64,000 nt of DNA from Lachnospiraceae bacterium (lineage in GTDB: Bacteria; Bacillota; Clostridia; Lachnospirales; Lachnospiraceae), in assembly GCA_017520425.1 (NCBI GenBank), contig JAFXFO010000024.1:124001-188000 (forward strand). Direction: 5' to 3'. Made by a program: the position numbers and the translations under genes. Under the pieces are notes generated by a model. That model saw nothing but the letters and a program-made list of their open reading frames with translations, ran no database searches and had not been told where the DNA came from. Below are positions 1,348-36,428 of this stretch, piece by piece; the stretch's first letter is position 1, and each line of letters begins with the position of its first letter.

Positions 1348-3012
1348 TCATCTGTTGGCTTCATCAATATAATACATATAGGTATCTCTTACTGTATCAT
1401 GCACTTCCTCGACTACCGTATTCGCCCCACGTCCAAACCGATACAGGAAAGAACTATTAATATCCAGATTCGGAATCATGTTGTGATATGCTACCATACC
1501 CTTCTCCATCATAAGCATGATTGTCTCATCCACCGCTCTGGAATCAAAGTTGCCTGCACGGTACAGACCAAGGTCAATGTAACCTTCATAGCCGGGAACT
1601 TCCTCCGAATACAAATTCCACGCAAAAGCAATTTTCCACGCTTTCTCATCATCATAGCATGCAGGAATGGCTAAGGGATATTCACTCCAGCAATTGGTAT
1701 AATCGTCCGCATTAGGTCCCTTGGGGAACATGACAAAACCAAGCTCATCCACGCTATCCGCAAACGCCCGCCCGGAAAGTCCCAAATCAGCTTCTTCCGG
1801 ACAGAAAGCCACATAACCATTCAGGAATGCCTCTGTATAGTAATTCCAAGAAGCATCTGCCGGTCTGTCCACCCCATAGGTCTCGAATATCTCTGTAATC
1901 CAGTTGAGGGCCTCCAACGTTGCAGGGTCTTCAAATTTATATACATAGTCACCATATTCATCCAAACCCACCAGTTCAGCATCGTTAGAATATACCGCCT
2001 GCAATACCGCCGTGCTGTAGTTGGCATCCATACCATAGATATCATCCACACCATCACCGTTCACATCACGCTGAACAACTTCCATGATATCCATCCATGC
2101 ATCCCAGGTCCAGGTACCGGCAGCCTGCATATCATAGATGGATTCCGGATCGATGCCGGCTTCTTCCAGTACTCTCTTATTAAACCACATACCAACACGA
2201 GGCTCCGCATAACCGGCACTCATGGCATAAATACTACCATCCTTGGCGTACAATTCATGTACCTTGTTTGTACTATACTTGTATTCTTCAAAATCCAGAC
2301 AATCTAACATAGAAAGGTCGTACATCATTCCCTGAGCCATAGCTGCAGTTACTGCCGGATTATCCCGAAGGGTAAATATGTAATTGTTATCATCGCCGCC
2401 CATACTAACATAATCCACAAAATCCTCGGGAACAGAGCCCCAGTCACCGATAGCCATTTCTTTAATGGTAAAGTTGTAAGTTTCCTGAATCCATTCCAGA
2501 TAAGCTGCTCTGGCCTCCTCATAGTCCGTCTGTGGTTCCCTCGGTTCTTCATATGACCACCAATCACGGATAATGATTTCCATGCCGCCCAGATCATAGG
2601 GTTTTCCGGTCCAAGGATCAATAATATACGTTGGGCCGAAACATTCTTCTATTTCCTCATCCGGGGTGACTTCTGTGGGTTCATATACTTCCCAGTCTTC
2701 CTCTTCCGGGTAGTAATCTGCTACCGGTTCTGTCGGTTCAGCCGACTCCTCATCCGGCCATTCATCCGTCCATACTATTTCTTCCGTAGCGGAAGGTATG
2801 GTTTCCGGATCAAGTGTTATGACCTCATCCGCCTTCTCTTCTTTTCCAAACAACTCACCCAAAACATCGCTTAATTCTTTGGTGGACTCGGTTTTGCTTT
2901 TGTCACTCTTTTTCTCTCTGCGGGATGAACTTTCTTCTTCCTCCCCGCATCCGCTGAGCATGCCTACACACAGGCCGCAAATCAACATGGTTGCAATGAC
3001 GCGTTTTTTCAT
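1348..3012 (-). CDS. Extracellular solute-binding lipoprotein (ABC sugar importer)
   Basis: Solute-binding protein of a carbohydrate ABC importer, 554 residues, tethered to the outer face of the membrane. The start at 3012 (MKKRVIA) is chosen because it follows GGAGGGAGAGG at good spacing; an in-frame GTG eight codons upstream lacks one. A lipoprotein signal ends at lipobox LSGC (Cys 22). About 90 residues of very acidic, Ser/Glu/Pro-rich linker follow, then a bacterial family-1 type binding domain with an EF-hand-like loop DVNGDGVDD. From DPWTGKPYDLGG onward it is a close paralogue of the protein at 6731-8197, which has a much shorter linker. It is the last gene of the GH43/U32-like operon, 23 bases after the second U32-like gene. 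Ligand is unknown; an (arabino)xylo-oligosaccharide is inferred from neighbours. Confidence 0.88.
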   Translation of the reverse strand: MKKRVIATMLICGLCVGMLSGCGEEEESSSRREKKSDKSKTESTKELSDVLGELFGKEEKADEVITLDPETIPSATEEIVWTDEWPDEESAEPTEPVADYYPEEEDWEVYEPTEVTPDEEIEECFGPTYIIDPWTGKPYDLGGMEIIIRDWWSYEEPREPQTDYEEARAAYLEWIQETYNFTIKEMAIGDWGSVPEDFVDYVSMGGDDNNYIFTLRDNPAVTAAMAQGMMYDLSMLDCLDFEEYKYSTNKVHELYAKDGSIYAMSAGYAEPRVGMWFNKRVLEEAGIDPESIYDMQAAGTWTWDAWMDIMEVVQRDVNGDGVDDIYGMDANYSTAVLQAVYSNDAELVGLDEYGDYVYKFEDPATLEALNWITEIFETYGVDRPADASWNYYTEAFLNGYVAFCPEEADLGLSGRAFADSVDELGFVMFPKGPNADDYTNCWSEYPLAIPACYDDEKAWKIAFAWNLYSEEVPGYEGYIDLGLYRAGNFDSRAVDETIMLMMEKGMVAYHNMIPNLDINSSFLYRFGRGANTVVEEVHDTVRDTYMYYIDEANR

Positions 3013-3035
3013 TTTCCTCTCCCTCCATAATCTCA

Positions 3036-3929
3036 CTACTTAAACATGGGCGCCAATACCGTCTTAATCTGTTTTTCAATAAAATCTCTTTCCTCATCCT
3101 TTACCAAAAAGTACAAATAGGAATCCAATACAAACTGAGGCGGCAGACCTCTTCCCACTATCTTAAAGTTCACATAGCCTCTCTCAATATAGCTTCCGAT
3201 TTCCTCATTGGAAATAAATGCAGGACGCTTCTTAGACTCTTCGAAAACTCTGGGAGTGGATTTATTGGGACAATTAAAACGGCTCAGGGTATCCATCTGA
3301 AGCTGTGCTCTGGACTCATCCCGATAATGCTGGCTACGCATGGGACAGTGTGGATAACAAATTTCATTTACCAATATCTCCAGCTTGCCTGCATAAGGTT
3401 CCAGCTCCTTCAGCACTTCCTCATCATGGTTCAAATCATAATCCAATACCACCAGATGATAATCCTTTTCCAGCTCCTCCTTAATACCCTGCAAATCCGT
3501 CATACGCTTTGTGGTAGAGGAAATGATGGGATATTCCGGATAGTTCTTACGGATATGCTCCTCCAGGCAGTCACGATTTACCAACACCTGATTGAAGCCA
3601 TTATTGGCCATCTCCATAATCTTATTACAAAAAGCATTTTCCATGTGCTTCTCTTCCAGCAAGGAATTGGTCCAGGTAAAACGTACCGGCACACCATTGG
3701 CATTGTATGCCTTTATGATTTTGTCCACATCTCCTTCAGAGATACTACCGAATACACTTCTTCCGCCGTTCCAAATAGCACCGGGGAAAGTACCGTACAC
3801 TGAGGCAATCTTATATCCCTCACGGAATTTCTCCGGATATTGCTTCATCAGTCCCAACCACACAATATTCAAATATCTGAGAGAACATAATCCCGGCAGA
3901 TGCCAGTATATTTCTTTCTTATTTTCCAT
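3036..3929 (-). CDS. U32/UbiU-like cysteine-containing protein, copy 1 (function unknown)
   Basis: Soluble protein of 297 residues with no signal peptide. The start at 3929 (MENKKEIYW) follows GAGGAG; a TTG seven codons upstream is not supported. It is a paralogue of the next gene upstream. I do not recognise a characterised family. The pattern resembles peptidase U32 / UbiU-UbiV TIM barrels: alternating strands, then NEICYPHCPMRSQHY (Cys 191, Cys 195), a later Cys 220, and near the C-terminus NFKIVGR, reminiscent of the U32 block KIEGR. Cys 101 aligns with a Cys of the paralogue, giving four shared cysteines that could hold an iron-sulfur cluster. It lies between its paralogue and a sugar-binding lipoprotein. 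The link to U32 is by eye and needs a profile search; the role in sugar use is unknown. Confidence 0.5.
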   Translation of the reverse strand: MENKKEIYWHLPGLCSLRYLNIVWLGLMKQYPEKFREGYKIASVYGTFPGAIWNGGRSVFGSISEGDVDKIIKAYNANGVPVRFTWTNSLLEEKHMENAFCNKIMEMANNGFNQVLVNRDCLEEHIRKNYPEYPIISSTTKRMTDLQGIKEELEKDYHLVVLDYDLNHDEEVLKELEPYAGKLEILVNEICYPHCPMRSQHYRDESRAQLQMDTLSRFNCPNKSTPRVFEESKKRPAFISNEEIGSYIERGYVNFKIVGRGLPPQFVLDSYLYFLVKDEERDFIEKQIKTVLAPMFK

Positions 3930-3958
3930 AAAGCATTGCTCCTCTTTCAAAACTTATC

Positions 3959-3997
3959 AAACACCCCCAAATCGCTTTATCGAAAATGGGGGTGTTT
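3959..3997 (-). terminator. Hairpin between the two U32-like genes
   Basis: AAACACCCCC (3959-3968) and GGGGGTGTTT (3988-3997) are perfectly complementary across a 19-base loop. On the plus strand a T-run follows; on the minus strand, the direction of the genes, only GTTTGATAAGTTTT follows. It is therefore more likely an attenuating or mRNA-protecting hairpin than a full terminator. Confidence 0.55.
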
Positions 3998-4007
3998 TTA
4001 TACTATT

Positions 4008-4958
4008 TTACGGCCAATGAGATGGTCTAGGCTTATTTACGGTGATAATCTTATTTGCCACCAGATTGTTAATGAGCAAAAGACGCATCTCACCCTGATG
4101 TTCCGGCTTAATCAAATAATGACAATAGGTATCAATCAAAGAGAATAAGTTTGCTGTTCTTCCCTCTATCTTGAAATGATGGAAGCCCATGGGCACATAT
4201 TTATCCCAGATATCCTGAGGGGCAATATAAGTGCTGTAACCCTGAATGGTATGAACACAATTATACTCGCCGTAATCACACCACCAGTGCTCCAAAGGAA
4301 TCTGCTTGTCTGCAGGCATCTTACGATTCTTCTGCATAATACGCTGATTCTTGGCAATGTTTTCATAATGCTTGCCACGTCTGGGGCAGTTGGGGATACA
4401 GAGGGTGTTTACCAAAAGCTCACATCTTCCCTTATCCTCGATTTTCTCCAGCTCTTCAAATTTGTTATTGAAATTGTAATCCAATACTACCAGATAATAA
4501 GGCTTCTTCAACTCCTCATTTACCAAATCAATATCCCTGATTTCCTTACAGGTAGAGCTGTTCAACTTGAAACTTGGATAGTTCTCGCGGATATATTTCT
4601 CCAGAACAGGGGAGAAAATCATTACCTCATTCATACCATTGTCCGCTTCCTTCATACAGAAGTTACAATAAGGATCCTTGCAGTCCTCTTCATTCAGAAG
4701 CATATTGGTATAGGTGTAACGTACCGGAATACCTTTCGCATTAATATTTTTAATAACATTTCTGATATAACCGGCATCACACTGGTCATAATTAGAAGGT
4801 CTTCCGCCATTCCAAAGAGAGGAAGGGAATTCACCAAAGAAGGATGCAATCTTAATCCCTTCTCTGAAAACCTCAGGCTTCTGCTCCAACAAGCTTAATA
4901 CCAGCATATTTAACGGATAATTTTGCCTTAAACCCGGCAAATGAAAATTTACTTCCAT
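4008..4958 (-). CDS. U32/UbiU-like cysteine-containing protein, copy 2 (function unknown)
   Basis: Soluble protein of 316 residues, paralogous to the neighbour at 3036-3929 along its full length (shared REG.KIAS..G.FP, WNGGR, GIPVR.T.TN, VVLDY.N, HFKI.GR). The ATG at 4958 follows AGGAAAGG. It has eleven cysteines, including 98, 101, 187, 191, 227 and 234. The block NTLCIPNCPRRGKHY and the later FKIEGRT resemble the U32 family, whose members UbiU and UbiV form a heterodimer of similar-sized [4Fe-4S] proteins. Position 22 bases after a GH43 gene and before a solute-binding protein gene makes co-transcription very likely. Whether it is a hydroxylase, protease-like or RNA-modifying enzyme cannot be told from sequence alone; U32 membership is inferred. 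Confidence 0.5.
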   Translation of the reverse strand: MEVNFHLPGLRQNYPLNMLVLSLLEQKPEVFREGIKIASFFGEFPSSLWNGGRPSNYDQCDAGYIRNVIKNINAKGIPVRYTYTNMLLNEEDCKDPYCNFCMKEADNGMNEVMIFSPVLEKYIRENYPSFKLNSSTCKEIRDIDLVNEELKKPYYLVVLDYNFNNKFEELEKIEDKGRCELLVNTLCIPNCPRRGKHYENIAKNQRIMQKNRKMPADKQIPLEHWWCDYGEYNCVHTIQGYSTYIAPQDIWDKYVPMGFHHFKIEGRTANLFSLIDTYCHYLIKPEHQGEMRLLLINNLVANKIITVNKPRPSHWP

Positions 4959-4980: not shown

Positions 4981-6561
4981 TTAATTTGCGTTATAAGAAA
5001 GTCCGGTAAACACTGCCGCACCTTCTGCCACGCCTTCTGCGACTGCATACATACCGATACAACAGCCAACAAAACCGCCTGCCACTTCTGTAGAAAGCTT
5101 ACGTACATCAATGGTATCTGCCAAAACAGTTTCCTTTTCACCATCAATTACGCTTACAGAAGCATTTAAATCATCAACCTTCAGCTTCAAGGTCACCTTT
5201 ACGCCTTCTACATTTGCAGAACCAAGTACTGCATCCACATTGTTTTCACAAAGAATAACGGATGCCTTGCCCCCTGATACCTCTGCCTTCAGATGATATT
5301 CATTGCTCTGAAGCAACACCAAGCCTGCATATTTGCCGGCTGTCAATTCACCGGTAGATACATCAGCGGTTACAGTAAACTTGTGATGTTGCTGTCTGAT
5401 ACCTACAAAGGAAGGACTATCCAATTCCTTTAAGGTTACGGTATCAAACTTAAGGGCTAATCCTTCGGCATTTGCCAAAGAATACATATCATCCTTAGGA
5501 TTACGAAGCATCAGGAACTCATCGCCCAATACTTCCATCTTGGTAAAGTCATAGGTTCTGTTACTACCGGGTACACAAGTCTTCTGCTTGGTACGGCTGG
5601 TATAAGAATCCGGGTCTTCTTCCGGCTTCCACTCAGGCAGGTTGATTTCCACGGTATCTGTAAGGATTCCTACGCCCGGATTTACAACGGGCCAACCGTT
5701 TTCCCAGGTCACCTTTGCCAAGAAAGTCTCACGTCCCATGGTGGTAAAACCTTCGATGGGGCGTACTGCCAACATGGTCATAAACCATTCGCCTGCAGGT
5801 GTTTCAATCAAGTCAGCATGTCCCACATATTTGATAGGATAATCAAATCCCAAATGTCTGTGAGTCAGAATGGGGTTGCAGAAATTGTTCTCATAGGGGC
5901 CCCAGATATCCTTACTTCTGCAGATAGTTACCGCATGCTCAGGGCCTGTACCGCCTTCTGCATGCATAATGTAATAATAATCGTCTTTCTTGTAAATATG
6001 AGGTCCTTCCGGCCAATGAACACCCTTCATGGCACCATTCCAAACATTCTTGTGCTCGCCGATAAGCTTCATATTCTTAATATCCACTTCCTGGATATAG
6101 ATATACCAGTCGCCGTTGTACTTAACACCGTCCGGATTGGGATGAGTACCGATGTAATAGCATCTGCCGTCATCATCAAAGAACAAACTGGGGTCAATAC
6201 CATCTGCACCCTGTAAGTAATAAGGCTCAGACCAGGGGCCTTCCGGATTGGTGGCCGTTACGATATAGTTGCCTCCATGGGATACATTGGTACAAATCAC
6301 ATAGAATACACCCTCATGATAACGGATGGTAGGCGCGAACAATCCCTGCGAATGACCCGCTTTCATCAAAGGCAGCTGGGAATTACGGTCCATAACATTA
6401 CCAATCTGCTCCCAATGTACTAAATCCTTGCTATGCATCAGGGACAAGCCCGGAAAATAAGCAAAGGTTGAATTAATCAGGTAATAATCTTCTCCCACCG
6501 CACAAATGGAAGGGTCCGGATAAAAGCCCGGCATAATTGGATTTTTTGCATAAATAGACAT
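4981..6561 (-). CDS. GH43 beta-xylosidase/alpha-L-arabinofuranosidase (cytoplasmic)
   Basis: Glycoside hydrolase family 43, 526 residues, removing xylose or arabinose from imported oligosaccharides. The start at 6561 (MSIYAKNPIM) is preceded by GGAGGA; in-frame upstream codons to 6651 carry no ribosome site. There is no signal peptide. The N-terminal propeller contains FYPDPSIC (base Asp 16), GIDPSLFFDDDG (modulating Asp 123) and WPEGPHIY (acid Glu 185). The C-terminal about 190 residues form the beta-sandwich usual in XynB-like members, including RQQHHKFTVTADV. It is the first gene of an operon with two U32-like genes and a solute-binding protein. Length and motifs fit the xylosidase/arabinofuranosidase subgroup; which sugar is removed cannot be read from sequence. 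Confidence 0.88.
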   Translation of the reverse strand: MSIYAKNPIMPGFYPDPSICAVGEDYYLINSTFAYFPGLSLMHSKDLVHWEQIGNVMDRNSQLPLMKAGHSQGLFAPTIRYHEGVFYVICTNVSHGGNYIVTATNPEGPWSEPYYLQGADGIDPSLFFDDDGRCYYIGTHPNPDGVKYNGDWYIYIQEVDIKNMKLIGEHKNVWNGAMKGVHWPEGPHIYKKDDYYYIMHAEGGTGPEHAVTICRSKDIWGPYENNFCNPILTHRHLGFDYPIKYVGHADLIETPAGEWFMTMLAVRPIEGFTTMGRETFLAKVTWENGWPVVNPGVGILTDTVEINLPEWKPEEDPDSYTSRTKQKTCVPGSNRTYDFTKMEVLGDEFLMLRNPKDDMYSLANAEGLALKFDTVTLKELDSPSFVGIRQQHHKFTVTADVSTGELTAGKYAGLVLLQSNEYHLKAEVSGGKASVILCENNVDAVLGSANVEGVKVTLKLKVDDLNASVSVIDGEKETVLADTIDVRKLSTEVAGGFVGCCIGMYAVAEGVAEGAAVFTGLSYNAN

Positions 6562-6665
6562 ATTTTTTCCTCCGTCATATATTATATTCAAAGTATTTCT
6601 CATGCCTTTAAAGTAGATTAAAAACATCAAAAAAACTCTGACCCAATACATGAATTAAGATAAAT

Positions 6666-6694: not shown

Positions 6695-6730
6695 AATTAC
6701 TTTTATCAAATATTAAGTTTGAAAAATGAA

Positions 6731-8197
6731 TTACTTGCCGTTAGCTGCGTCAATGTACGCCTTGTAAGAATCTCTTACACCATCAAGTACTTCAGATACT
6801 ACAGTCCAAGAACCGAAGTTCCAAAGGAAAGGAGCACCCATATCAAGATCCGGAATAGAATCATGATATGTAATAGAACCCTTAGAAGACATCATAACGA
6901 TGGTCTCATCAACTGCTCTAGAGTCGAAGTTGTAGTTTCTGTAAGGTGAAAGGTCTAATTCATCTTCATAACCAGGTGTATCTTCTGTCCACAGGTTGTA
7001 AGCGAATGCGATCTTCCATGCTCTGTCTTCATCGTAGCAAGCAGGGATAGCCTTAAGGTTATCATTCCACCAGTTGGTGTAATCAGAAGCCTGAGGTCCC
7101 TTAGGGAATGCAACGAAACCGATTTCGTCAACCATATCCATTAAGAAGCCGTTAGGGCCGCCACAGTATGCTTCATCAGGCATGAATGCAACCTGACCGT
7201 TCTTGAATGCTTCCTTGTAGTAATCCCACTGAGCATCAGCAGGTCTAACAAGTGCATAGTTCTTGAAGTTTTCTACCATCCACTCAAGTGCTTCTACGGT
7301 AGCAGGATCTTCGAACTTGTAAACAAACTCACCGCCGTTTGATCCAACGTACTCAGAGTTGTTAGATGCAACTGCTGCAGATACAGGGATACCATAGTTA
7401 GCGTCGAAACCGTAAACGTCGATCTGACCATCGTTGTTGATATCACGCTGAACCTTAGCCATCATGTCAGTCCATGCAGACCATGTCCAGTCGCCAGATG
7501 CCTGTAAATCATAAAGACTTTCAGGATCGATACCAGCGTCAGTTAATAATCTCTTGTTGAAGTAGATACCACAACGAGGTTCAGGATAACCAGCGTTAAC
7601 AGCTGCTACCTTGCCGTTGAAGGTATACTTCTCATGAAGCTTATTCTTCTGCCACTTAGATTCAGAAAGGTCGATACAATCAAGTGAAGACCAGTCATAC
7701 ATTAAGTTGTTACCCATAGCTGAAGTAATAGCCGGGTCAGCACGAAGAGTAAATACATAGTTAACATCATCACCATCGGTGGTAACGTAATCTACGAAGT
7801 CCTGAGGGTTAGAGCCCCAGTCACCCATACCAAGTTCTCTGATCTTGAAGTTATAGGTTTCCTGGATCCATTCACGATATTCTGCTCTTGCTTCTTCGAA
7901 AGCACCATTAGGTTCTGCTGCTTCTTCAGGAGACCACCAGTCACGGATGATGATTTCCATACCGCCCAAGTCATAAGGCTTGCCGGTTGCAGGATCGTTG
8001 ATAATGGTATAAGCGCCCAAATCTTCTTCAACAGGTGCAGATGAGCTACCATCAACAGGAGCTGCTGAGCTGTCGGTAGGAGCTGCTGAGCTTGAGCCGT
8101 CAGTAGGTTCAGTCTTCTCGCCACATCCGGCAAAGCTAACAGTCATAACTGCTGCTAAAGAAGCTGCCATCAGTTTCTTAAACATCTTACTTTTCAT
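6731..8197 (-). CDS. Extracellular solute-binding lipoprotein (ABC sugar importer)
   Basis: Solute-binding lipoprotein of 488 residues. ATG at 8197 follows a very strong AAGGAGG site. Signal peptide MKSKMFKKLMAASLAAVM leads to lipobox FAGC, then a short Ser/Ala-rich linker and a family-1 type binding domain. It carries an EF-hand-like DINNDGQID loop and shares long blocks with the protein at 1348-3012 (DLGGMEIIIRDWW, WIQETYNF, YKFEDPAT.EAL, NFDSRAVDETI). It has its own promoter and a 94-base leader with a hairpin, while the two permease genes at 8368-10270 lie immediately upstream and are its likely partners. Separate strong expression of the binding protein is common for ABC importers. Ligand is inferred to be a xylan-derived oligosaccharide. 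Confidence 0.9.
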   Translation of the reverse strand: MKSKMFKKLMAASLAAVMTVSFAGCGEKTEPTDGSSSAAPTDSSAAPVDGSSSAPVEEDLGAYTIINDPATGKPYDLGGMEIIIRDWWSPEEAAEPNGAFEEARAEYREWIQETYNFKIRELGMGDWGSNPQDFVDYVTTDGDDVNYVFTLRADPAITSAMGNNLMYDWSSLDCIDLSESKWQKNKLHEKYTFNGKVAAVNAGYPEPRCGIYFNKRLLTDAGIDPESLYDLQASGDWTWSAWTDMMAKVQRDINNDGQIDVYGFDANYGIPVSAAVASNNSEYVGSNGGEFVYKFEDPATVEALEWMVENFKNYALVRPADAQWDYYKEAFKNGQVAFMPDEAYCGGPNGFLMDMVDEIGFVAFPKGPQASDYTNWWNDNLKAIPACYDEDRAWKIAFAYNLWTEDTPGYEDELDLSPYRNYNFDSRAVDETIVMMSSKGSITYHDSIPDLDMGAPFLWNFGSWTVVSEVLDGVRDSYKAYIDAANGK

Positions 8198-8367: not shown

Positions 8368-9369
8368 TTACATTTTAATACCGGAACTACTGATACTTTC
8401 CACAAACGCACGCTGTGCGAAGAGGTAAATGATGATCAAAGGTAAGATAATCATCAAAGTACCGGTAGCCAAAATACAGTTGGAATAAGCCACGGAAACC
8501 GTAGTCTTAACACCCAGCTCCTTCATCAGGAATGCACCCAAGCTGTCTACGATACGTGACAAACCGGTACTTACCAGCTGAGTATTTCCAAGGAACAATC
8601 TGGAGTAGAAACCATCTGTCCACTGCCATACAAATGCAAACAGGAAACAAGAGGTTAAAATCGGCTTTCCTTCCGGAAGCATGATACGTACGAAGGTCTT
8701 TAAGGTACCGCATCCGTCTACGTATGCTGCTTCTTCCAAATCCTTAGGAATGGTACGGAAGAACTGACGAATCATGTAAATATACAAACCATTCTTAAGA
8801 CCCATACAACCTGCACTCATCAGGTAGTAAGGAATCTTAGAACCTCTCAGGTTGATTGCCTGACCCTTAACTGCTTCAAAAATACCGAACACATCAAAGT
8901 ATCTGAAGTGTAAGTGAAGGGAGTTGGAAATGGTCTGAGGGGGAACCAAAATAACCATCATTACACATGCAAACCAGAATTTCTTTAAAGGGAATTCAAA
9001 TCTTGCAAATCCGTAACCTACCAGAGTACATACTGCAATCTGTAATAAAGCAATCGTTACGGAAATAATCATGGAGTTCTTTAAAGCTTCCCCGTACTTC
9101 ATCAAAGTAGCCGCCATCTGGTAGTTTCCTGTGGTGAAGTTTTCCGGAATGTTAATAACAATCGGATTGTAAAGGTCAGATTCTGTCATGAAGCTGACAG
9201 AAATCTTATTCAGTATAGGTTGCAAAATCAGGAAGCACATACCAAAGAGAAGGATGAATCGGCAGATGCTGATACCCCAGTTTAACATGGTTCTCTTTAA
9301 TAAATATCCTTCTGACTTTCGGTTTCTTTCCCAGAAGTTATCTGCACTCTTAACTTTTGTCTTAGTCAT
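8368..9369 (-). CDS. Carbohydrate ABC transporter permease (MsmG/MalG-like)
   Basis: Integral membrane permease of 333 residues with a long N-terminal cytoplasmic stretch and about six membrane helices. The EAA loop that docks the ATPase is visible as EEAAYVDGCGTLKTFVRIMLP. ATG at 9369 follows AGGGGG and overlaps the end of the preceding permease gene by 8 bases, showing translational coupling. The pair plus the solute-binding protein at 6731-8197 would make one importer. No ATPase gene is nearby, as is usual for clostridial sugar importers that share an MsmK-type subunit. Confidence 0.9.
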   Translation of the reverse strand: MTKTKVKSADNFWERNRKSEGYLLKRTMLNWGISICRFILLFGMCFLILQPILNKISVSFMTESDLYNPIVINIPENFTTGNYQMAATLMKYGEALKNSMIISVTIALLQIAVCTLVGYGFARFEFPLKKFWFACVMMVILVPPQTISNSLHLHFRYFDVFGIFEAVKGQAINLRGSKIPYYLMSAGCMGLKNGLYIYMIRQFFRTIPKDLEEAAYVDGCGTLKTFVRIMLPEGKPILTSCFLFAFVWQWTDGFYSRLFLGNTQLVSTGLSRIVDSLGAFLMKELGVKTTVSVAYSNCILATGTLMIILPLIIIYLFAQRAFVESISSSGIKM

Positions 9370-10270
9370 AATAGTATACCCCCTTAGAAATGATAAGAGA
9401 AGTAATACCTACATACAGTATTACAACCAGGAAATATACCCACGACAGCGCTGACGCAAAACCGTACTGCTGTTTTGTAACCATTTCTGTGGATATTTTC
9501 TTAATTACCTGATTATCGGTTCTCATACAGAAGTCGATAATGGTATATACCCAGTTTACCAGGAGCAGGGAGCTAACCATAGGGAAGGTAATCTTCCAAA
9601 GGCTTTCCCACTTGGTACAGCCTTCGATGCTGGCTGCTTCGTACATACTGGAAGATATGGTCTGTAAGCCGGAAAGGAAGATAATAATCTGGATACCGGA
9701 CATAATTGCCACATCATAAATATTGTCAATAACTTCAAACACCTTTTCGAATACTTTGATACCAACATTTGCGGTTCTCAGTAATTCTTCCAAAACTGCA
9801 GTCACGCTCACGCCGGAAGTTGACATTTCAATAGTATCTGCCAACTGTGACATCAGGGAGTTATTCTCTTCCAGACCGATGATAACACCGGAGGAAAGAA
9901 TAACGGGAAGGAAGAAAATCGCACGTACCAATGCACGTCCCTTAAATTCCTGATTCAGTATCAAGGCAACAAAGAAACTGAATACCATGATAGCCAGGGA
10001 GTACACAAACATTCTTCCTAATTCGGTAAGCAGCATGGAGTTGAAATCAGGATCAACCAAAAATGCCTGCTTATAGTTCGCCAAACCTTTATAGACCGGT
10101 TCAAACTGGCCGGGACCCAATAACACTTCACAAAAGCTCATGTATAATGACTGTGCCAGAGGCTTCACCATAAATACAAGGAAACCGATTATGAACGGTG
10201 ATATGAACAGGTATCCCGAAATTGCTTTACGCTTTTGAAGACCAGCTAATTTATTCTTTTGCTTCTTCAT
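9362..10270 (-). CDS. Carbohydrate ABC transporter permease (MsmF/MalF-like)
   Basis: Integral membrane permease of 302 residues, partner of the overlapping gene at 8368-9369. It starts MKKQKNKLAGLQKRKAISGY, with a first helix LFISPFIIGFLVFMV. The EAA loop is YEAASIEGCTKWESLWKITFP. An unusually long extracytoplasmic insertion (about residues 125-180) lies between the middle helices. ATG at 10270 follows AAAGGG. It lies 40 bases after the DUF5696-type gene in the same operon. Confidence 0.88.
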   Translation of the reverse strand: MKKQKNKLAGLQKRKAISGYLFISPFIIGFLVFMVKPLAQSLYMSFCEVLLGPGQFEPVYKGLANYKQAFLVDPDFNSMLLTELGRMFVYSLAIMVFSFFVALILNQEFKGRALVRAIFFLPVILSSGVIIGLEENNSLMSQLADTIEMSTSGVSVTAVLEELLRTANVGIKVFEKVFEVIDNIYDVAIMSGIQIIIFLSGLQTISSSMYEAASIEGCTKWESLWKITFPMVSSLLLVNWVYTIIDFCMRTDNQVIKKISTEMVTKQQYGFASALSWVYFLVVILYVGITSLIISKGVYYYD

Positions 10271-10310: not shown

Positions 10311-12920
10311 TTAACGAATTACCTTGAAATCCTTTGCAGGAACCACAATGCCATCTTCAGTTTTTGCATCCTCATGTCCGTAGTTTACATAAACCTTGGT
10401 GCCATCTTCATAGGTTGTGCAGGATAACTCTACCGTTATATTGTCATGGTCGACCATCTGTTGATTAAAGGTATGCTTAAGCTCGGAATTGTATCGATTG
10501 TAAATATCAAGCATTCTGTCATGCCAAGCAGCATATTCAGAACCATAATACTCGGTATACAATGTTTTCTGCAGTGCAAATGCTGATTCCTTCATGAATG
10601 TGAAGGATAAGCCTGCACCATACTCAGCAGCCAGTAAAACTTCATCTACTTCGTTGCCGGAAATATTGATAGGGTATCCGGTATAGTTAACAAATCCATG
10701 GATTGCTAACTGATAGAAAGGTACTGCTTCATCAATTAAGGTATCCTTACTACCCTTCAAATCCATATTGGTAATCATATCACTGTAAGGTGCTGCATAG
10801 CTGTTACCAAGATTAATCATAACCTTGGTGCCGGAAGCCTTAATGTTTTTCAGCTTCTCTACCTGCTCCTCCATAACATCCTGTCTGTAGCTGATGTCTT
10901 TCTTGTAGAAGTCAGATGCCAGCTCCTTACCAACTTCCTGGAAGGATACGCCGGTCTTATATTTGTTTGCTTCAGCTACCAGATTATCCATCATCTGATG
11001 TGCGATATCTGTATGCAACAGATAGAATGACTTACCGCCTTCTCTTGCTGCATAAGTTACTGCACTGTATTCATATAATTCAGCTCTTTCCTTACTGATG
11101 AACTTAGCTGCATCAGAGTAAGAGAAGAAACCATCTAAAAGATTGCTGTTATATGCATACTGTGTAACACCATTCAAGTAAAGGTCTACACCCAGCTGAC
11201 TTGCGGTTTCGGAAAGATTCTGCATATCCTTCTTGTTACCAAGTGCTGAAATAAGCTTAACCTTCTCTAAGTATTCCTGCTGTACACCACCGTTACACCA
11301 TCCGGTATATTTCACTGACATATTGTCAATACCGTCTGCCTTCAATTCCTTGATCATCTCAGCTGCTTCTTTGTAAGTAGTCAGCTTCAAAGGTCTTGAA
11401 ACAGGAACACCTAATACCTGACGGACCTTATCTACCGCACCGACGATCTCGAATGCAACAGGTGTAGAGGTGTCAGTATTCTTGGTAAGTGCATCACCGT
11501 ACTCTTCGAATAAATAGTTCTGATATTCCTTAGCCATATCTACATAGCTGTTGGAATTGATAAAACGATATCTCTGGGTGAAAACTTCATCCGGCAAATC
11601 TTCCAGATATACATAGATATCTGTATTTGCAATCTGACCTACATCATACTTTTCTCTGGTAGCTACTGCGTACTTAGAGTTTACAAAGTTGTAGGAATGG
11701 GTCTTTCCGCCGATATCTGCCTGGATGGATGCGTAAGCTGCACCGTCATCCAAAATACAGAGGAAGGAATCCTCTCCGTTTGCAATACCATAGGTATTGA
11801 AATAAGTCTTTGTATTATGTACAACTGAATCACGGAACAAACCATAATCCCAGCCGTATACATTTGCTGCATAATTGGGCTGTGCCACCTTACCATTATT
11901 GAAATGGATAAGGCTACCGCCGCCTTCCGGAATAAACAGGAAGCCTTCGTCCTCAGAACCGCCTGCTCCGAAATAAGGAAGGGGAGTTACTGCTGTAATA
12001 GGAGTATCCTTCTTGTAAGTCAAGCTATCAACAGGTACCTCTACTACCAGTTCATTTCCTACCAGGCTGTAAATAATACTTGCACCGAAGATAGGCTTAT
12101 CGGAGGTATTGGTTGCATTGGAACGTGTCTTATGCTCTGCATAATCTTCCAGGGTGTAACCGATAGAAGCAAAAACTTCCTCAAGTGTTACACGAACCTT
12201 ACCCTTTGTGGTTTCACGAAGTACGTAACATACCTCTGTCTCTAACATAGGGTAGTTTGCTAAAAGTTCTTCCTTGTTATCCTTCTTACCCAGCTTGTTG
12301 ATATCATACTTTTTGAAGTATTCATCCATCAATCTGGTGTCTTTCTTTTCCATTTTGCTGCACCATTCGTCATACTCGGCAACAGTCAAAACGGGAGGAA
12401 CGATATATTCTCTCTCGATATCACCGAGAGAATAATCAATTCTTACTGAATTGCTTCCGGGCTCATACTGAATCTCGTAAAGTCCGTTTCTGATACTATA
12501 TCTGTAGTTATTGTAAACTGTTTCCAAACCTGACTGTACACTATGTGTTACATTCAAGGTGGACTGTAATAACTCTTTATCTGTTCCCAATGCCATAGGG
12601 TCATTGGCTGCGTTTACGGGATTGGAATACCAAATCTTTCCGCTGTCCTTTACTAACAGCTGAAACTGAGTAGTTGTGGTATCCAGAGTCAGCTTTAATG
12701 CATCGTTTTCCAAAACGATGGGCTGGCCATCTCCGTCATATCCCTTTACTTCTGTGATTGCTTCCTCTTCTACTGCATCTTTATGATTTACTACATAAAA
12801 GATACCAGCACCGATAATTGCACACAGAATCACGGGGAATGCCCAACGCTTAACCAGATTTAAAATGGAAGTCATTACTTTATTTGACTTTTTTGTTTTT
12901 ACTGATTTTTCCTTTTTCAT
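10311..12920 (-). CDS. DUF5696-type membrane-anchored protein
   Basis: Protein of 869 residues with a basic cytoplasmic tail, one membrane helix at about residues 27-45 (FPVILCAIIGAGIFYVV) and a large extracytoplasmic part. I assign it to the DUF5696 family from the overall pattern and the gene company; no catalytic function is established for that family. The C-terminal half (about residues 470-800) alternates helices and strands like a TIM barrel (RPLKLTTYKEAAEMIKELK, GVDLYLNGVTQYAY, GTKVMINLGNSYAAPYSDM), suggesting a glycosidase-like fold. The N-terminal half looks like a beta-sandwich. It is encoded between YIP1 and permease genes, so it may capture or trim the oligosaccharide before import. 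Enzyme activity is a guess. Confidence 0.7.
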   Translation of the reverse strand: MKKEKSVKTKKSNKVMTSILNLVKRWAFPVILCAIIGAGIFYVVNHKDAVEEEAITEVKGYDGDGQPIVLENDALKLTLDTTTTQFQLLVKDSGKIWYSNPVNAANDPMALGTDKELLQSTLNVTHSVQSGLETVYNNYRYSIRNGLYEIQYEPGSNSVRIDYSLGDIEREYIVPPVLTVAEYDEWCSKMEKKDTRLMDEYFKKYDINKLGKKDNKEELLANYPMLETEVCYVLRETTKGKVRVTLEEVFASIGYTLEDYAEHKTRSNATNTSDKPIFGASIIYSLVGNELVVEVPVDSLTYKKDTPITAVTPLPYFGAGGSEDEGFLFIPEGGGSLIHFNNGKVAQPNYAANVYGWDYGLFRDSVVHNTKTYFNTYGIANGEDSFLCILDDGAAYASIQADIGGKTHSYNFVNSKYAVATREKYDVGQIANTDIYVYLEDLPDEVFTQRYRFINSNSYVDMAKEYQNYLFEEYGDALTKNTDTSTPVAFEIVGAVDKVRQVLGVPVSRPLKLTTYKEAAEMIKELKADGIDNMSVKYTGWCNGGVQQEYLEKVKLISALGNKKDMQNLSETASQLGVDLYLNGVTQYAYNSNLLDGFFSYSDAAKFISKERAELYEYSAVTYAAREGGKSFYLLHTDIAHQMMDNLVAEANKYKTGVSFQEVGKELASDFYKKDISYRQDVMEEQVEKLKNIKASGTKVMINLGNSYAAPYSDMITNMDLKGSKDTLIDEAVPFYQLAIHGFVNYTGYPINISGNEVDEVLLAAEYGAGLSFTFMKESAFALQKTLYTEYYGSEYAAWHDRMLDIYNRYNSELKHTFNQQMVDHDNITVELSCTTYEDGTKVYVNYGHEDAKTEDGIVVPAKDFKVIR

Positions 12921-12968: not shown

Positions 12969-13625
12969 CTATAGGCGGAACAATAATTCCCTGCCTAATG
13001 AGATAAAGTATGCAATACCCTGTGAAATCATACTGAAGAAAAGCATCAGGATGAATAAGATGACTAACATTGCAAAAATACTTGCTATGGTAAACAGAAT
13101 ATTCTTGCCGGGGCCAAACTCATGTATCTGCTGCATTGCAAAGATAATGAGGAATACCGCCCACACTAGGGAAACCACATTGACCATGTTGTAGAATCCC
13201 ACCTCGTCCACAGTTACAAAGTTGCTAAAAATCATTAACGGGAACTGAATCAACGGATAAGGTGCAATGGCATAACAGGTAGCCATATATACCTGTCCCA
13301 GACGGCCCTTACCGTCAAACAAGGTTGTTAATGCCCAGTTACCTATTACCCACAATGCCAAGGGGAATAAAATACTGGCAATATAGGTAAACATATTTAA
13401 TTCTTCCCAGTAAAGGGGTTTAATTACAAAGCTTGTAAATCTTAATCCCATAACTCTGGCAAGTAATGTCAGAATCAGGATTGTGTTTGCTGCAGCGTAG
13501 GTACCGCGTTTTTCATGGGTTAAATCCCAGAAACCGTCCAACGGATGAGTCAAACAGTATAAAGCAAACTTCAGCGATTTGAAATAACGCTGCCATTTAG
13601 ATTTGTTTTTTAATGCCGCTATCAT
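12969..13625 (-). CDS. YIP1-family integral membrane protein
   Basis: Membrane protein of 218 residues with about five hydrophobic helices, resembling the YIP1 domain. The start at 13625 (MIAALKNKSKW) follows GGAGGAGG; an ATG at 13640 overlaps the previous stop but lacks a ribosome site. It has polar motifs between helices such as THPLDGFWDLTHEKRG and HEFGPGKN. It is flanked by the NHL-propeller protein and the DUF5696-type protein in one operon. In bacteria the YIP1 domain has no fixed role; a scaffold function for the transport complex is inference. Confidence 0.75.
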   Translation of the reverse strand: MIAALKNKSKWQRYFKSLKFALYCLTHPLDGFWDLTHEKRGTYAAANTILILTLLARVMGLRFTSFVIKPLYWEELNMFTYIASILFPLALWVIGNWALTTLFDGKGRLGQVYMATCYAIAPYPLIQFPLMIFSNFVTVDEVGFYNMVNVVSLVWAVFLIIFAMQQIHEFGPGKNILFTIASIFAMLVILFILMLFFSMISQGIAYFISLGRELLFRL

Positions 13626-13639
13626 ATCTGCCTCCTCCA

Positions 13640-15148
13640 TTAGATTCTAAAGATATCAGCCATATCGATTTCGCGCTTGATTCTTCTAATCTTACCAATA
13701 GCCAAGGGAACCACGACAATCACAATAAGTGCTGCCACTACCAAACCGATATTTTCTTCTATCCATACCTTACGATACTGCTTATATGCCTTGGAATAGT
13801 TGTCCGCATCATACTTAACTTCGAAATATTCCATTGCTTCTTTGTACTTTTCCTGACGAAGTAACGCACGACCGATTCCGATATAAGCCAGGTCATAGTT
13901 ACCATTCAGGTCCTTTGCATGAATCCAGGATGCTTCAGACGCATCGTACTCACCTCTGTCGAACTGCTCCATCGCATCAAAAACTACATCGCCAAACTCT
14001 GTGGTAACAAAAGTAGTAATACAGCAATCCAAGCTGTCAAGTACATATAAATCTCTTCCCATATTAACAATTGCGGAAGGCTGTCTGAAGTAACCGTCAC
14101 GGTTACCGTTACCACCGAATGCAAATACCAGATTACCCTGATCATCATAACCGAACAGACGGCCACGGTTTCTATCCAGACAAACATACACATCATTGTC
14201 CATACAGGTCACATCAGTAAATCTGGAAGGACCGGAGATACCACCACCGGTACCCATATAAATATCACCGTAAACAGGGAACTCACCATTACGTACCAGA
14301 ATATCATCACCCAGCAGGTTCAGCTTTCTGACTGCATGTACGGTACCTGCTTTCAGGTCCTCTTCCTTCACACTGGCGATACAAGCATATACGAAACCTT
14401 CATGATCCATGAAAATATTTTCGTACTCAGTAGGAACGAAAGAAATCATCTTTTCTCTCTGTGCCTGTGTTGCAAATTTCTTCTTCAAATAATCAAAGAA
14501 GTTGTAAGAAACAGGGGTTGCACCTACGAAGCTTGCAAAGTCACCATTGCTTTCATACTTAATAAGACCCTTGTTAATACCGGTTGCGATACAATAAACA
14601 CGACCTGCAGTATCAACTGCCAGCTTATTGGGCTGGAAATTTGTCTTTTCATCCAAGGAAGGATCTACGGGGATTGTAAACTGCATAATGTAGTTTAAAT
14701 CGTTATCAAGTTTTAAGATTCTTGAATTATCCTTATCTGCAATGTAGAAGTTGCCATCATCATCCACAGATACATCGGTAGGGGTTGCAAAGGTCTTCAC
14801 CTCTAAATCTCCGCCCTTAAACTCTGTAATATATCTGAGAACCTTAAAGCTTCCATCCTCTGCATTCTTCTCCATCTCGATGATACGGTTGTTACCGGTA
14901 TCTACAATATAAAGAAGATTATCCTTTGCGAAAAGTCCCTGAGGGCTCTTCATGGGAACATCTAATCCCAAAGCACCGGAGGTGAAAGAATCCTGAACCA
15001 TGTAGAAGTCCGGCGAATCCTGTACATCTCCCCAGTAATCATAATTATAAGTGTAGCTCTTATCCTTTGCACATACCGAAATGGTACTTCCTGCAAACAC
15101 GCTTATCGCCAATGCAAATGCGGCGATTCCAGTAATTATTCTTTTCAT
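13640..15148 (-). CDS. NHL-repeat beta-propeller/TPR membrane protein
   Basis: Exported protein of 502 residues. The start at 15148 (MKRIITGIAAFAL) follows GAGGTGG and begins with a signal peptide. NHL-type propeller blades are seen in residues about 60-375 (SPQGLFAKDNLLYIVDTGNNRI, TPTDVSVDDDGNFYIADKDN and QPSAIVNMGRDLYVLDS, each cut here to its core). A short TPR-like stretch follows (GIGRALLRQEKYKEAMEYF), then one membrane helix (IGLVVAALIVIVVVPLAIG) and a basic cytoplasmic tail. The propeller would therefore face outwards. It lies between a permease gene and the YIP1 gene, overlapping neither. A role in binding substrate or organising the importer is inferred. Confidence 0.75.
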   Translation of the reverse strand: MKRIITGIAAFALAISVFAGSTISVCAKDKSYTYNYDYWGDVQDSPDFYMVQDSFTSGALGLDVPMKSPQGLFAKDNLLYIVDTGNNRIIEMEKNAEDGSFKVLRYITEFKGGDLEVKTFATPTDVSVDDDGNFYIADKDNSRILKLDNDLNYIMQFTIPVDPSLDEKTNFQPNKLAVDTAGRVYCIATGINKGLIKYESNGDFASFVGATPVSYNFFDYLKKKFATQAQREKMISFVPTEYENIFMDHEGFVYACIASVKEEDLKAGTVHAVRKLNLLGDDILVRNGEFPVYGDIYMGTGGGISGPSRFTDVTCMDNDVYVCLDRNRGRLFGYDDQGNLVFAFGGNGNRDGYFRQPSAIVNMGRDLYVLDSLDCCITTFVTTEFGDVVFDAMEQFDRGEYDASEASWIHAKDLNGNYDLAYIGIGRALLRQEKYKEAMEYFEVKYDADNYSKAYKQYRKVWIEENIGLVVAALIVIVVVPLAIGKIRRIKREIDMADIFRI

Positions 15149-29971: not shown

Positions 29972-31561
29972 TTATTTGTGGTAAATAAACTTGGAAAACG
30001 TTACCCTTCCTCCGATTTTTTCTGTAGAATAGATAAACAATCCAAACCGACAGCCGGTGAAATGATCCAATCTGAAATACAGTTTCTGAGGACCTCCTAA
30101 TTGTTGATAACCTTCTCCCATATCAAAATGCAATACCACTTCATCCTTCATCTGTTCGAAATCCACTCCGATACGTAACTTCACCCGGTCAGAAGATGCC
30201 GGTATTTTTTCCAAAAGCACCGGTGCCGTGATATCCTTCGTCTTTCCCATGGAGGTAGTACCCTCCTCCGTTCTGGCCATCAACACCACATAAAGCTGCC
30301 CCTTTTCTCTGGTCAGTGCTGCCTGGACATATTTGCCCTGCAAAGCGCAAAGTCCGGCAAAATCCCCATCCTTCAATTGGCTTCCGTCTACCGTCACTTC
30401 ACCTTCGCAGGAAGGGAACAGCATCCTTTGAGTCAACATATTCTTGGCCTGTGTCACATTCACACAAAGCTTATCCGTAGTCACGGTTACAGTGCCCTCG
30501 GCCATATCTCTGTGCACCAAAGACATATCAGGTTCATGGTTAAACTGCCAGATACTCTTAAATCCGTAGCTATCGAAATTCACATCGGTAGTGGTCCTCA
30601 TGGTAGCAGCCGCCTCTGCTGCCGGCCAAACACCCTCTTTGAAATCATCACTCTGCACCAAAGGCACATATTCATAGTCCGGTCTGGTGCTTGAAACCGC
30701 AAACTCTGCCGGGATTTTTCCGTCCACTCCGAATACCGGATAATCCTCTTCCCAACAAACAGGAATCAGCACCGGAACTCTTCCCACAGCGCCTCTGTCC
30801 TGGAACAAAATCGCATACCAATCCCCATCCGGCGTATCCACGATACCACCCTGGGCTGCACCTGCGTTGCAATATCCCGCATCATCATTCAGTACATCGC
30901 CGCCCACAAATTCACCCTCTAAGGAATCCGCCACAAAGCAAGCCTCCACACGCTTCCACTCTGTCCTCAAAGAATGAATAAAAAACACATAATACTTTCC
31001 GTTTATTTTGTAAAAATGTGCACCTTCATACCCCAGACTGGGATTGCCCTCATCGCTGACAATCATTCTGTGGATTCCGCCCTCCTTAGGGCCGCTCAAA
31101 TCCTCCTTCATCTCTGTCAGCCAGATATGTCGGTTGCCGTATACCAGATACACTCTTTCGTCATCATCAAACAAAAGAGAGCAGTCATGATAAAAGCCAT
31201 CAATCTCCTTTTTCTCCCAAGGCCCCTCTACGGACGGTGCGGTATAAAGATAGGTCTTGTGGGTATCGTTTGCCACAAAAATCACATAAAATTTCCCTTT
31301 GTGATAACGCAAGGTGGCTGCCCACATGCCTCTGCCGTATATATTCTCCTCTCCCTCCAAGCGTTGTCCGGGCGTACTGTCCAACACATCATAAAGATAT
31401 GCTGCATGCTCCCAATTTATCAAATCATAGGAACGCAATATCTCACATCCCGGCATAAAATGCATGGTGGTGCTGACCATATAATAAGTATCTTCCACAC
31501 GGATTACATCCACATCAGGATAATCCAATCTTGTTATGGGATTGATTGGCTGCTTGCTCAT
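29972..31561 (-). CDS. GH43 beta-xylosidase/arabinofuranosidase-like enzyme (cytoplasmic)
   Basis: GH43 enzyme of 529 residues without signal peptide; ATG at 31561 follows an AGGAGGAAATAT site. Catalytic landmarks are intact: DYPDVDVIR (base Asp 16), YHDCSLLFDDD (modulating Asp 126) and LGYEGAHFY (acid Glu 179). The C-terminal sandwich ends with YFRLDHFTGCRFGLFIYST. It is paralogous to the protein at 21482-23029, which lacks the modulating Asp. It lies 67 bases after the GH115 gene and likely shares its transcript, acting on xylo- or arabinoxylo-oligosaccharides inside the cell. Confidence 0.88.
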   Translation of the reverse strand: MSKQPINPITRLDYPDVDVIRVEDTYYMVSTTMHFMPGCEILRSYDLINWEHAAYLYDVLDSTPGQRLEGEENIYGRGMWAATLRYHKGKFYVIFVANDTHKTYLYTAPSVEGPWEKKEIDGFYHDCSLLFDDDERVYLVYGNRHIWLTEMKEDLSGPKEGGIHRMIVSDEGNPSLGYEGAHFYKINGKYYVFFIHSLRTEWKRVEACFVADSLEGEFVGGDVLNDDAGYCNAGAAQGGIVDTPDGDWYAILFQDRGAVGRVPVLIPVCWEEDYPVFGVDGKIPAEFAVSSTRPDYEYVPLVQSDDFKEGVWPAAEAAATMRTTTDVNFDSYGFKSIWQFNHEPDMSLVHRDMAEGTVTVTTDKLCVNVTQAKNMLTQRMLFPSCEGEVTVDGSQLKDGDFAGLCALQGKYVQAALTREKGQLYVVLMARTEEGTTSMGKTKDITAPVLLEKIPASSDRVKLRIGVDFEQMKDEVVLHFDMGEGYQQLGGPQKLYFRLDHFTGCRFGLFIYSTEKIGGRVTFSKFIYHK

Positions 31562-36277: not shown

Positions 36278-36428
36278 AACGATTCAGAGCCCCATTCGCA
36301 AAACCGCCTCTTCGGGGCTTTCCTTTTGCGAATGGATGGCTTCTCGCCATATAGAGTCATAAAAACAGACACTTTCAAGCAAGCTTGAAGTGTCTGTTTT
36401 GCATGAATCTGCATGGCTCTGAATCGTT
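36278..36428. repeat. Nested inverted-repeat region with terminator between GH8 and esterase genes
   Basis: Outer arms AACGATTCAGAGCC (36278-36291) and GGCTCTGAATCGTT (36415-36428) are perfectly complementary and enclose the whole gap; the right arm includes part of the GH8 stop codon. Inside are CCATTCGCAAAA/TTTTGCGAATGG (36292-36303 and 36324-36335), a small ATGGC/GCCAT hairpin, and the terminator at 36361-36400. GAGCCCC (36287-36293) can also pair with GGGGCTT (36314-36320), giving an alternative fold. It could be leader control of the esterase-GH115-GH43 message or a palindromic mobile remnant. Confidence 0.65.
36361..36400 (-). terminator. Rho-independent terminator after GH8 gene
   Basis: The minus strand has AAAACAGACACTTCAAGC, a short loop, then the complementary arm (one bulge) and TTTTT. 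It lies 27 bases past the GH8 stop codon. It would split GH8 from the esterase operon or act as an attenuator within one transcript, since no clear promoter was seen between it and the esterase start. Confidence 0.8.

Follow-up and report, generated by a model that had tools for sequence, protein, structure and literature searches.

UA and UB, an obligate pair of U32-related paralogues from a Lachnospiraceae sugar operon and candidates for an anaerobic oxidation

We analysed a stretch of 64,000 nucleotides from a Lachnospiraceae bacterium (GenBank assembly GCA_017520425.1, contig JAFXFO010000024.1, positions 124,001 to 188,000 of the forward strand), referred to below as the window. Within a sugar operon it encodes two adjacent paralogues, UB and UA, which behave as an obligate pair across genomes. 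Sequence comparison places them in a deep new subfamily of the U32 superfamily, distinct from both UbiU–UbiV and TrhP/RlhA, in which the cysteines are arranged differently and each protein has an obligate partner. Concerning their function, we tentatively favour a cytosolic iron–sulfur (Fe–S) pair of the U32 superfamily that would carry out the O2-independent oxidation of a small molecule from the use of (glucurono)xylan, a reading which we consider possible rather than probable. The two genes are as follows:

4008–4958, minus strand: UB, a predicted U32-superfamily protein of 316 amino acids with an ATG start; C98, C187, C191, C227, E180, K263 and R267.
3036–3950, minus strand: UA, a paralogue of UB, 304 amino acids when read from TTG; four conserved cysteines and the FKI-x-GR block.

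The likelier start of UA is the ATG at codon 8, which is preceded by AGAGGAG and gives a protein of about 297 amino acids. UB and UA are identical at 111 of 289 aligned positions (38%, E 2e-65, BLASTP), in agreement with the sequence-only reading, a model's earlier note on this DNA, which had described two adjacent paralogues of about 300 residues at 3036–4958. The ratio of non-synonymous to synonymous substitution rates relative to the nearest relative (locus L006) is 0.021 for UB, for which synonymous sites are near saturation, and 0.065 for UA. These low ratios indicate purifying selection, so the two true paralogues are not chance open reading frames. The annotated gaps are 22 bp between the upstream glycoside hydrolase gene (GH43) and UB, and 57 bp between UB and UA.

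Relatives were collected by a scan of species genomes with UB peptide patterns, from which the best 80 of 94 confirmed stretches encoding a relative were kept; seeded and reduced in this way, the scan favours UB and linked pairs. A separate UA is present in 58 of these best 80 loci, and in 53 of the 58 it lies at most 300 bp from UB. One genome (L022) has an in-frame UB–UA fusion with no stop between the two parts. In a tree of 106 rows, UA and UB each form one clade, with supports of 98 and 100, respectively, in the Shimodaira–Hasegawa-like approximate likelihood ratio test (SH-aLRT). Separate trees were built from 50 UA and 61 UB rows with two outgroup rows each, and near-duplicate loci were left out of these and of the 106-row tree; all trees are quick searches with SH-aLRT support only.

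Across 99 related genomes, with frames classified from the window, the collected loci and further fetched regions, UB is found in 23 and UA in 21. All 21 UA genomes also contain UB, and 21 of the 23 UB genomes contain UA (Fisher p 1.6e-19, uncorrected for kinship); the two with UB only have completeness values of 81% and 70%. The genes adjoin in 12 of the 21 genomes (the fusion being one of these) and lie on different contigs in nine. The two genes thus occur together whether or not they adjoin, and nothing else found here speaks as strongly for a functional pair. In 11 of the 12 genomes with adjoining genes, a sugar-binding lipoprotein (SBP) is encoded within two genes of UB, and in the twelfth (G400) the contig ends just upstream of UB and an HlyD–FtsX module is visible. 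Looking at the nine split genomes, UB lies near gdpP–rplI–dnaB in seven, elsewhere in G401 and still in a sugar operon in G407, and UA is found near ispF, rarA and lgt, near sbcCD, or near other genes (gdpP was named by Pfam; rplI, dnaB, ispF, rarA, lgt and sbcCD were named from the sequence by eye). The split genomes occupy at least three places on the RpoB tree. Concerning a heterodimer, the 21/21 co-occurrence and the single fusion favour it, whereas a mirror-tree comparison over 27 loci shows no excess covariation of UA and UB distances. Phylum-wide, nine of 398 genomes have any match, and only the window's genome and G142 have matches at UA/UB strength.

The gdpP–rplI–dnaB surroundings of UB recur in the loci L036, L074–L076, L078–L080, L084, L157, L159, L160, L163, L164 and L174–L177. 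Long UB copies near these genes (about 353–368 amino acids, e.g. L079) carry an insertion of about 35–40 residues before the C227 region. Also, in L059 and L066–L069, metA, in some cases together with pepF, either separates UB from UA or follows UB; L066 shows no UA.

Cysteine conservation was counted over 141 aligned rows (81 UB and 60 UA, window included; UB numbering). C98 is kept in 140 of the 141 rows, C187 and C191 in all of them, and the fourth cysteine in 80/81 UB (C227) and 60/60 UA sequences, so the four common cysteines pointed out in the earlier note are retained almost without exception. UB has three further cysteines of its own (C60 in 79/81, C101 in 76/81 and C137 in 81/81), which might form a second metal site or provide a catalytic thiol. 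A wider survey of 156 rows included UB, UA, two singleton groups and a group of proteins of about 400 amino acids (five subgroups). Conservation reaches 97% or more, with the same residue prevailing in every subgroup, at P8, G52, R53, N85, D95, N99, S135, T136, N164, E180, C187, C191, Y198, Y254, G258, K263, G266 and R267; K263, G266 and R267 belong to the C-terminal FKI-x-GR block, which the earlier note had likewise recognised.

The published U32 oxidase motif is CX6CX15CX3/4C (PMC6747719, PMC11574389). This motif is absent from UA and UB, which have C187-X3-C191 and C227, with the fourth cysteine upstream at position 98; UbiU and UbiV also depart from it (PMC6747719). TrhP requires E162, C170 and C177 for tRNA hydroxylation (PMC6599085). 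In all three alignment settings, TrhP C170 falls on UB C187, C197 on C227, and K287, G290 and R291 on K263, G266 and R267, respectively, while E162 aligns with the invariant E180 in one setting and with E160 in two. A [4Fe–4S] cluster is inferred for UA and UB and is likely.

Concerning family placement, neither protein reaches the gathering score of Peptidase_U32 (PF01136, 22.4 bits): UB scores 15.1 bits and UA has no match. However, 117 of the 141 aligned relatives match the Pfam U32 model at E ≤ 1 (best 1.7e-7), and among ten scanned relatives the cut-off is passed by L106 (39.3 bits) and by two UB-clade proteins of L085 (31.2 and 26.9 bits). A profile of UA and UB was compared with a profile of 38 U32 sequences (four from E. 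coli and 34 frames from the phylum to which the window's genome belongs), the fusion locus L022 being left out of the UA+UB profile and of the profile–profile alignments. This comparison gives P 1.6e-6, which becomes 4.9e-7 over 218 columns with the singletons added and 3.7e-8 over 222 columns with the 400-amino-acid family added too. The latter family (L106–L108) alone gives P 1.7e-9 against U32 and 6e-16 against UA/UB, whereas 17 control families taken from these loci, GH10, GH5 and GH3 among them, give P of at least 0.02 against UA/UB and at least 0.036 against U32. Compared with single E. coli proteins, the UA+UB profile gives P 0.024 for TrhP and 0.0039 for RlhA; orthology with UbiU or UbiV is rejected (P 0.12 and 0.81, respectively). 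Sequence searches of the PDB with UA, UB, the UA+UB profile, a 400-amino-acid relative and TrhP returned nothing meaningful, and neither did NCBIfam and PADLOC for UA or UB. Since the profile comparison and the bridging 400-amino-acid family stand against a missed Pfam cut-off, kinship to the superfamily is well supported on sequence grounds and membership of the canonical family is not. On three points where the sequence-only reading could have failed, the profiles lead to no unrelated family, the cysteines are well conserved, and a link to glycan genes recurs.

Of the relatives found to exceed the Pfam U32 threshold, the proteins of about 400 amino acids are the closest (L106 being the one tested). 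They share the C187, C191 and C227 columns with UA/UB but are encoded by a single gene, have an extra cysteine-rich C-terminus, lack C98 and come from another family of the phylum; also, no sugar operon was recognised around them by eye. A radical-SAM-like gene (by eye) lies two genes downstream in all three genomes L106–L108. Two further singleton subfamilies of the superfamily (L099–L105 and L111–L114) have scattered surroundings, and the singleton copies L101 and L113 adjoin radical-SAM-like genes, recognised by eye.

Among characterised systems, UbiU–UbiV, which act in anaerobic ubiquinone hydroxylation in E. coli, resemble UA/UB in being two adjacent U32-superfamily paralogues of about 300 amino acids with four conserved cysteines each, and they form a heterodimer with one [4Fe–4S] cluster per subunit (PMC6747719). 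The cysteine spacings differ: CX6CX16CX38C in UbiU and CXnCX12CX3C in UbiV (PMC6747719), compared with C98, C187-X3-C191 and C227 in UA/UB. The KIEGR block is absent from UbiV, whereas FKI-x-GR is kept in both UA and UB. The likeness to UbiU–UbiV drawn in the earlier note thus stands as regards U32 relationship, pairing and the number of cysteines, and falls as regards orthology. TrhP and RlhA, which are U32 RNA-hydroxylation factors, are related to UA/UB at profile level over the 218–222 columns but are longer (453 and 653 amino acids compared with about 300). YrrN–YrrO of B. subtilis is, like UA–UB, a tandem U32 pair and is needed for a tRNA modification (PMC6599085). The window's genome encodes two further U32 frames of canonical type (422 and 733 amino acids), likened to TrhP and RlhA by length only. 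No SCP2 (UbiT) domain was found among the scanned neighbours of UB and UA.

The link to sugar genes is common. Among the 58 loci that have UA as a separate gene, 55 show a glycoside hydrolase or an SBP–permease–DUF5696 module within the fetched DNA, and 44 show a glycoside hydrolase (GH43, GH10, GH5, GH115, GH3 or GH8). The three exceptions are L050, which shows only an HlyD–FtsX module that does not by itself make a sugar system, and the loci L034 and L056, whose DNA ends 0.4 and 1.8 kb upstream, respectively. Of 22 loci without a separate UA (one being the fusion), 16 show neither a glycoside hydrolase nor an SBP module. At the level of whole genomes, 20 of 23 UB genomes contain the SBP at E ≤ 1e-60, compared with 5 of 38 UB-less members of the genus (Fisher p 1.0e-8, uncorrected); of the three UB genomes without it, one has a truncated contig and the other two are 59% and 70% complete. 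On an RpoB tree, which holds 48 of the 60 genomes requested and 18 of the 23 UB genomes (the others lacked a usable RpoB stretch), there are seven phylogenetically independent contrasts, of which a mean of 6.6 point the same way and none the opposite (median p 0.016, range 0.016–0.063). Where UB lies outside the operon, the SBP is still present in 8 of 10 genomes (p 1.2e-4). GH115 is found in 22/23 UB genomes and 16/38 other members of the genus, and DUF5696 in 21/23 and 19/38, respectively. Uronate isomerase is uninformative, being present in all 23 UB genomes and also in 33 of the 38 others.

Adjacent pairs lie in sugar operons and split copies mostly among housekeeping genes, so the glycan linkage is common but not obligatory. 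Accordingly, the link to glycan genes pointed out in the sequence-only reading is recurring but not obligatory, and a pair confined to sugar genes, also considered, was rejected when the whole-genome searches showed unlinked pairs. Leaving the sugar operon looks derived, as the copies found elsewhere are nested among sugar-operon copies in the UA tree (three changes); this reading carries the caveat of the UB-seeded sampling, and the UB tree does not settle the direction.

In the mechanism that we tentatively favour, UB and UA would be the two subunits of a cytosolic U32-superfamily pair with a presumed TIM-barrel fold and dimeric arrangement, each subunit holding a [4Fe–4S] cluster through its four cysteines. 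Given the kinship, the retained residues and the pairing, we infer the same kind of chemistry as in UbiU–UbiV or TrhP, i.e. that of an O2-independent oxidase (hydroxylase). The putative substrate would be a small molecule formed during the import and cleavage of (glucurono)xylan oligosaccharides. The targets of reported U32 oxidases are RNA bases or ubiquinone precursors; these reactions proceed without O2, and prephenate has been implicated as the oxygen source (PMC11574389); in the open-licence literature searched, partly in incomplete texts, no role of U32 proteins in glycan use was found.

A more specific proposal, which we regard as a long shot suggested by gene content, is that a U32-type Fe–S heterodimer of UA and UB would hydroxylate 4-O-methylglucuronate at its methyl ether after release by GH115, so that glucuronate and formaldehyde are formed. 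The distributions of GH115 and uronate isomerase are compatible with this but not discriminating, and a search of the open-licence literature for 4-O-methylglucuronate demethylation by gut bacteria gave no match. If true, strict anaerobes could use the whole side chain of glucuronoxylan, and a U32 oxidase would act on a carbohydrate, of which no example was found in the literature searched.

Several observations weigh against an oxidase pair of xylan use. At the level of residues, C98 is missing from one of the two L085 copies and from the singleton L114, TrhP C177 aligns with H197 and not with C191 in all three settings, and C191 follows C187 by 4 positions where the U32 spacing is 7; also, a direct comparison of the UA+UB profile with UbiU or UbiV alone yields no significant match. 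At the level of the pair, the UA–UB distance correlation over the 27 mirror-tree loci is 0.65, compared with 0.82 for UB–permease and 0.84 for UB–DUF5696. At the level of the sugar link, part of the SBP association stems from physical linkage, and the 8/10 test counts the two UB-only genomes and carries no kinship correction. The SBP is found without UA/UB in five genomes, so the transporter can exist without the pair, and the associations with GH115 and DUF5696 fail the correction for kinship (median p 0.25 and 0.125, respectively). Finally, split UB copies lie mostly by gdpP–rplI–dnaB and UA by rarA–lgt, sbcCD or others, which are housekeeping-like surroundings.

This last point favours the main rival, a U32 enzyme of general metabolism that modifies RNA or a cofactor, as do TrhP, RlhA and YrrN–YrrO, its place in sugar operons being stable but incidental. 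The characterised U32 oxidases described in PMC11574389 modify RNA or serve ubiquinone synthesis, and the tandem YrrN–YrrO pair offers a parallel in tRNA modification (PMC6599085). We consider this rather unlikely: the distribution of the pair is narrow, both in the phylum and among the 99 relatives (UB in 23), the same genome already has the two canonical U32 frames, and the SBP co-occurs with UB even when unlinked.

The co-occurrence with the transporter could instead reflect shared ancestry or joint transfer, with no functional link. Adjacent pairs would be lost and gained together with the operon, and the association outside the operon comes from 10 genomes, several of them closely related; the seven independent contrasts on the RpoB tree, none of which goes against a functional link, and the scatter of the split genomes over that tree make this explanation unlikely. 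That UA and UB form a redox or Fe–S sensor or regulatory complex which tunes the xylan operon, and are not an enzyme, would suit genes that lie in the operon in some genomes and elsewhere in others, with the SBP retained, an arrangement open to trans-acting regulators. This seems improbable, as charged residues common to enzymes of the superfamily (R53, E180, K263, R267) are strongly conserved, Pfam found no DNA-binding domain in UA or UB, and the window has its own AraC-type regulator. That UA and UB are true U32 peptidases with peptides or glycopeptides as substrates, for which only the Pfam superfamily name speaks, is highly improbable, since the U32 members described in the available parts of PMC6747719, PMC6599085 and PMC11574389 are hydroxylation factors whose cysteines bind or probably bind a cluster, and nothing protease-like was recognised in the gene context; the U32 family does also contain putative peptidases (PMC11574389).

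Few ways of adding oxygen without O2 are known, U32 oxidases being one of them, and the cases described in the passages cited involve RNA or quinones. As a deep unannotated branch, an obligate pair and a frequent companion of a xylan-oligosaccharide transporter, UA/UB possibly point to a missing step of anaerobic fibre breakdown in gut and rumen Lachnospiraceae, and they provide a defined gene pair with which such a step can be tested.

The minus-strand order around the pair is NHL-repeat protein, Yip1, DUF5696, two permeases, the lipoprotein at 6731–8197, GH43, UB, UA, the second lipoprotein and another GH43. The pair does lie between a GH43 gene and a sugar-binding lipoprotein gene, as the earlier note had it. 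Judged by gene content, the window appears to be a glucuronoxylan locus; its remainder also holds GH115, two more GH43, a GDSL esterase and GH8. The features are as follows:

1348–3036, minus strand: second sugar-binding lipoprotein, directly downstream of UA, 58% identical to the lipoprotein at 6731–8197; SBP_bac_1 E 6.9e-5, 23.4 bits, just below the cut-off of 26.
4981–6651, minus strand: GH43 with GH43_C2 (a C-terminal domain of beta-xylosidase type), directly upstream of UB, by Pfam.
6731–8197, minus strand: SBP, the query of the co-occurrence test; SBP_bac_1 27.2 bits, cut-off 26.
8368–9369 and 9362–10270, minus strand: two permease genes of an ATP-binding cassette transporter, named from position and by eye, without a Pfam scan.
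10311–12920, minus strand: DUF5696 protein in the same gene run, by Pfam.
12969–13640, minus strand: Yip1 protein in the same gene run, by Pfam.
29972–31561: GH43, alongside GH115.
31629–34499, minus strand: GH115 (alpha-glucuronidase family), part of the glucuronoxylan gear elsewhere in the window.
34518–36248: GDSL esterase, alongside GH115.
36427–37560: GH8, alongside GH115.
3959–3997, minus strand: hairpin between UB and UA, attenuator-like, with an 11-pair stem of which 6 pairs are G–C.

Terminator-like hairpins are found at 6695–6665, ahead of GH43, and at 1317–1287, behind the second lipoprotein; single sites of this kind are weak evidence, since 22 occur in 20 kb where 14.5 are expected. 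The 81-nucleotide stretch around the UB–UA hairpin has a folding energy of −24.1 kcal/mol (z −4.6), and the hairpin is possibly an attenuator that would lower UA relative to UB. Among 21 loci whose spacer was compared, a similar inverted repeat is present at the same place in L006, and the others have a different one or no strong hairpin. In L050 and L055, the UB–UA spacers contain long palindromes (17-pair stem) that are almost identical and resemble a mobile repeat.

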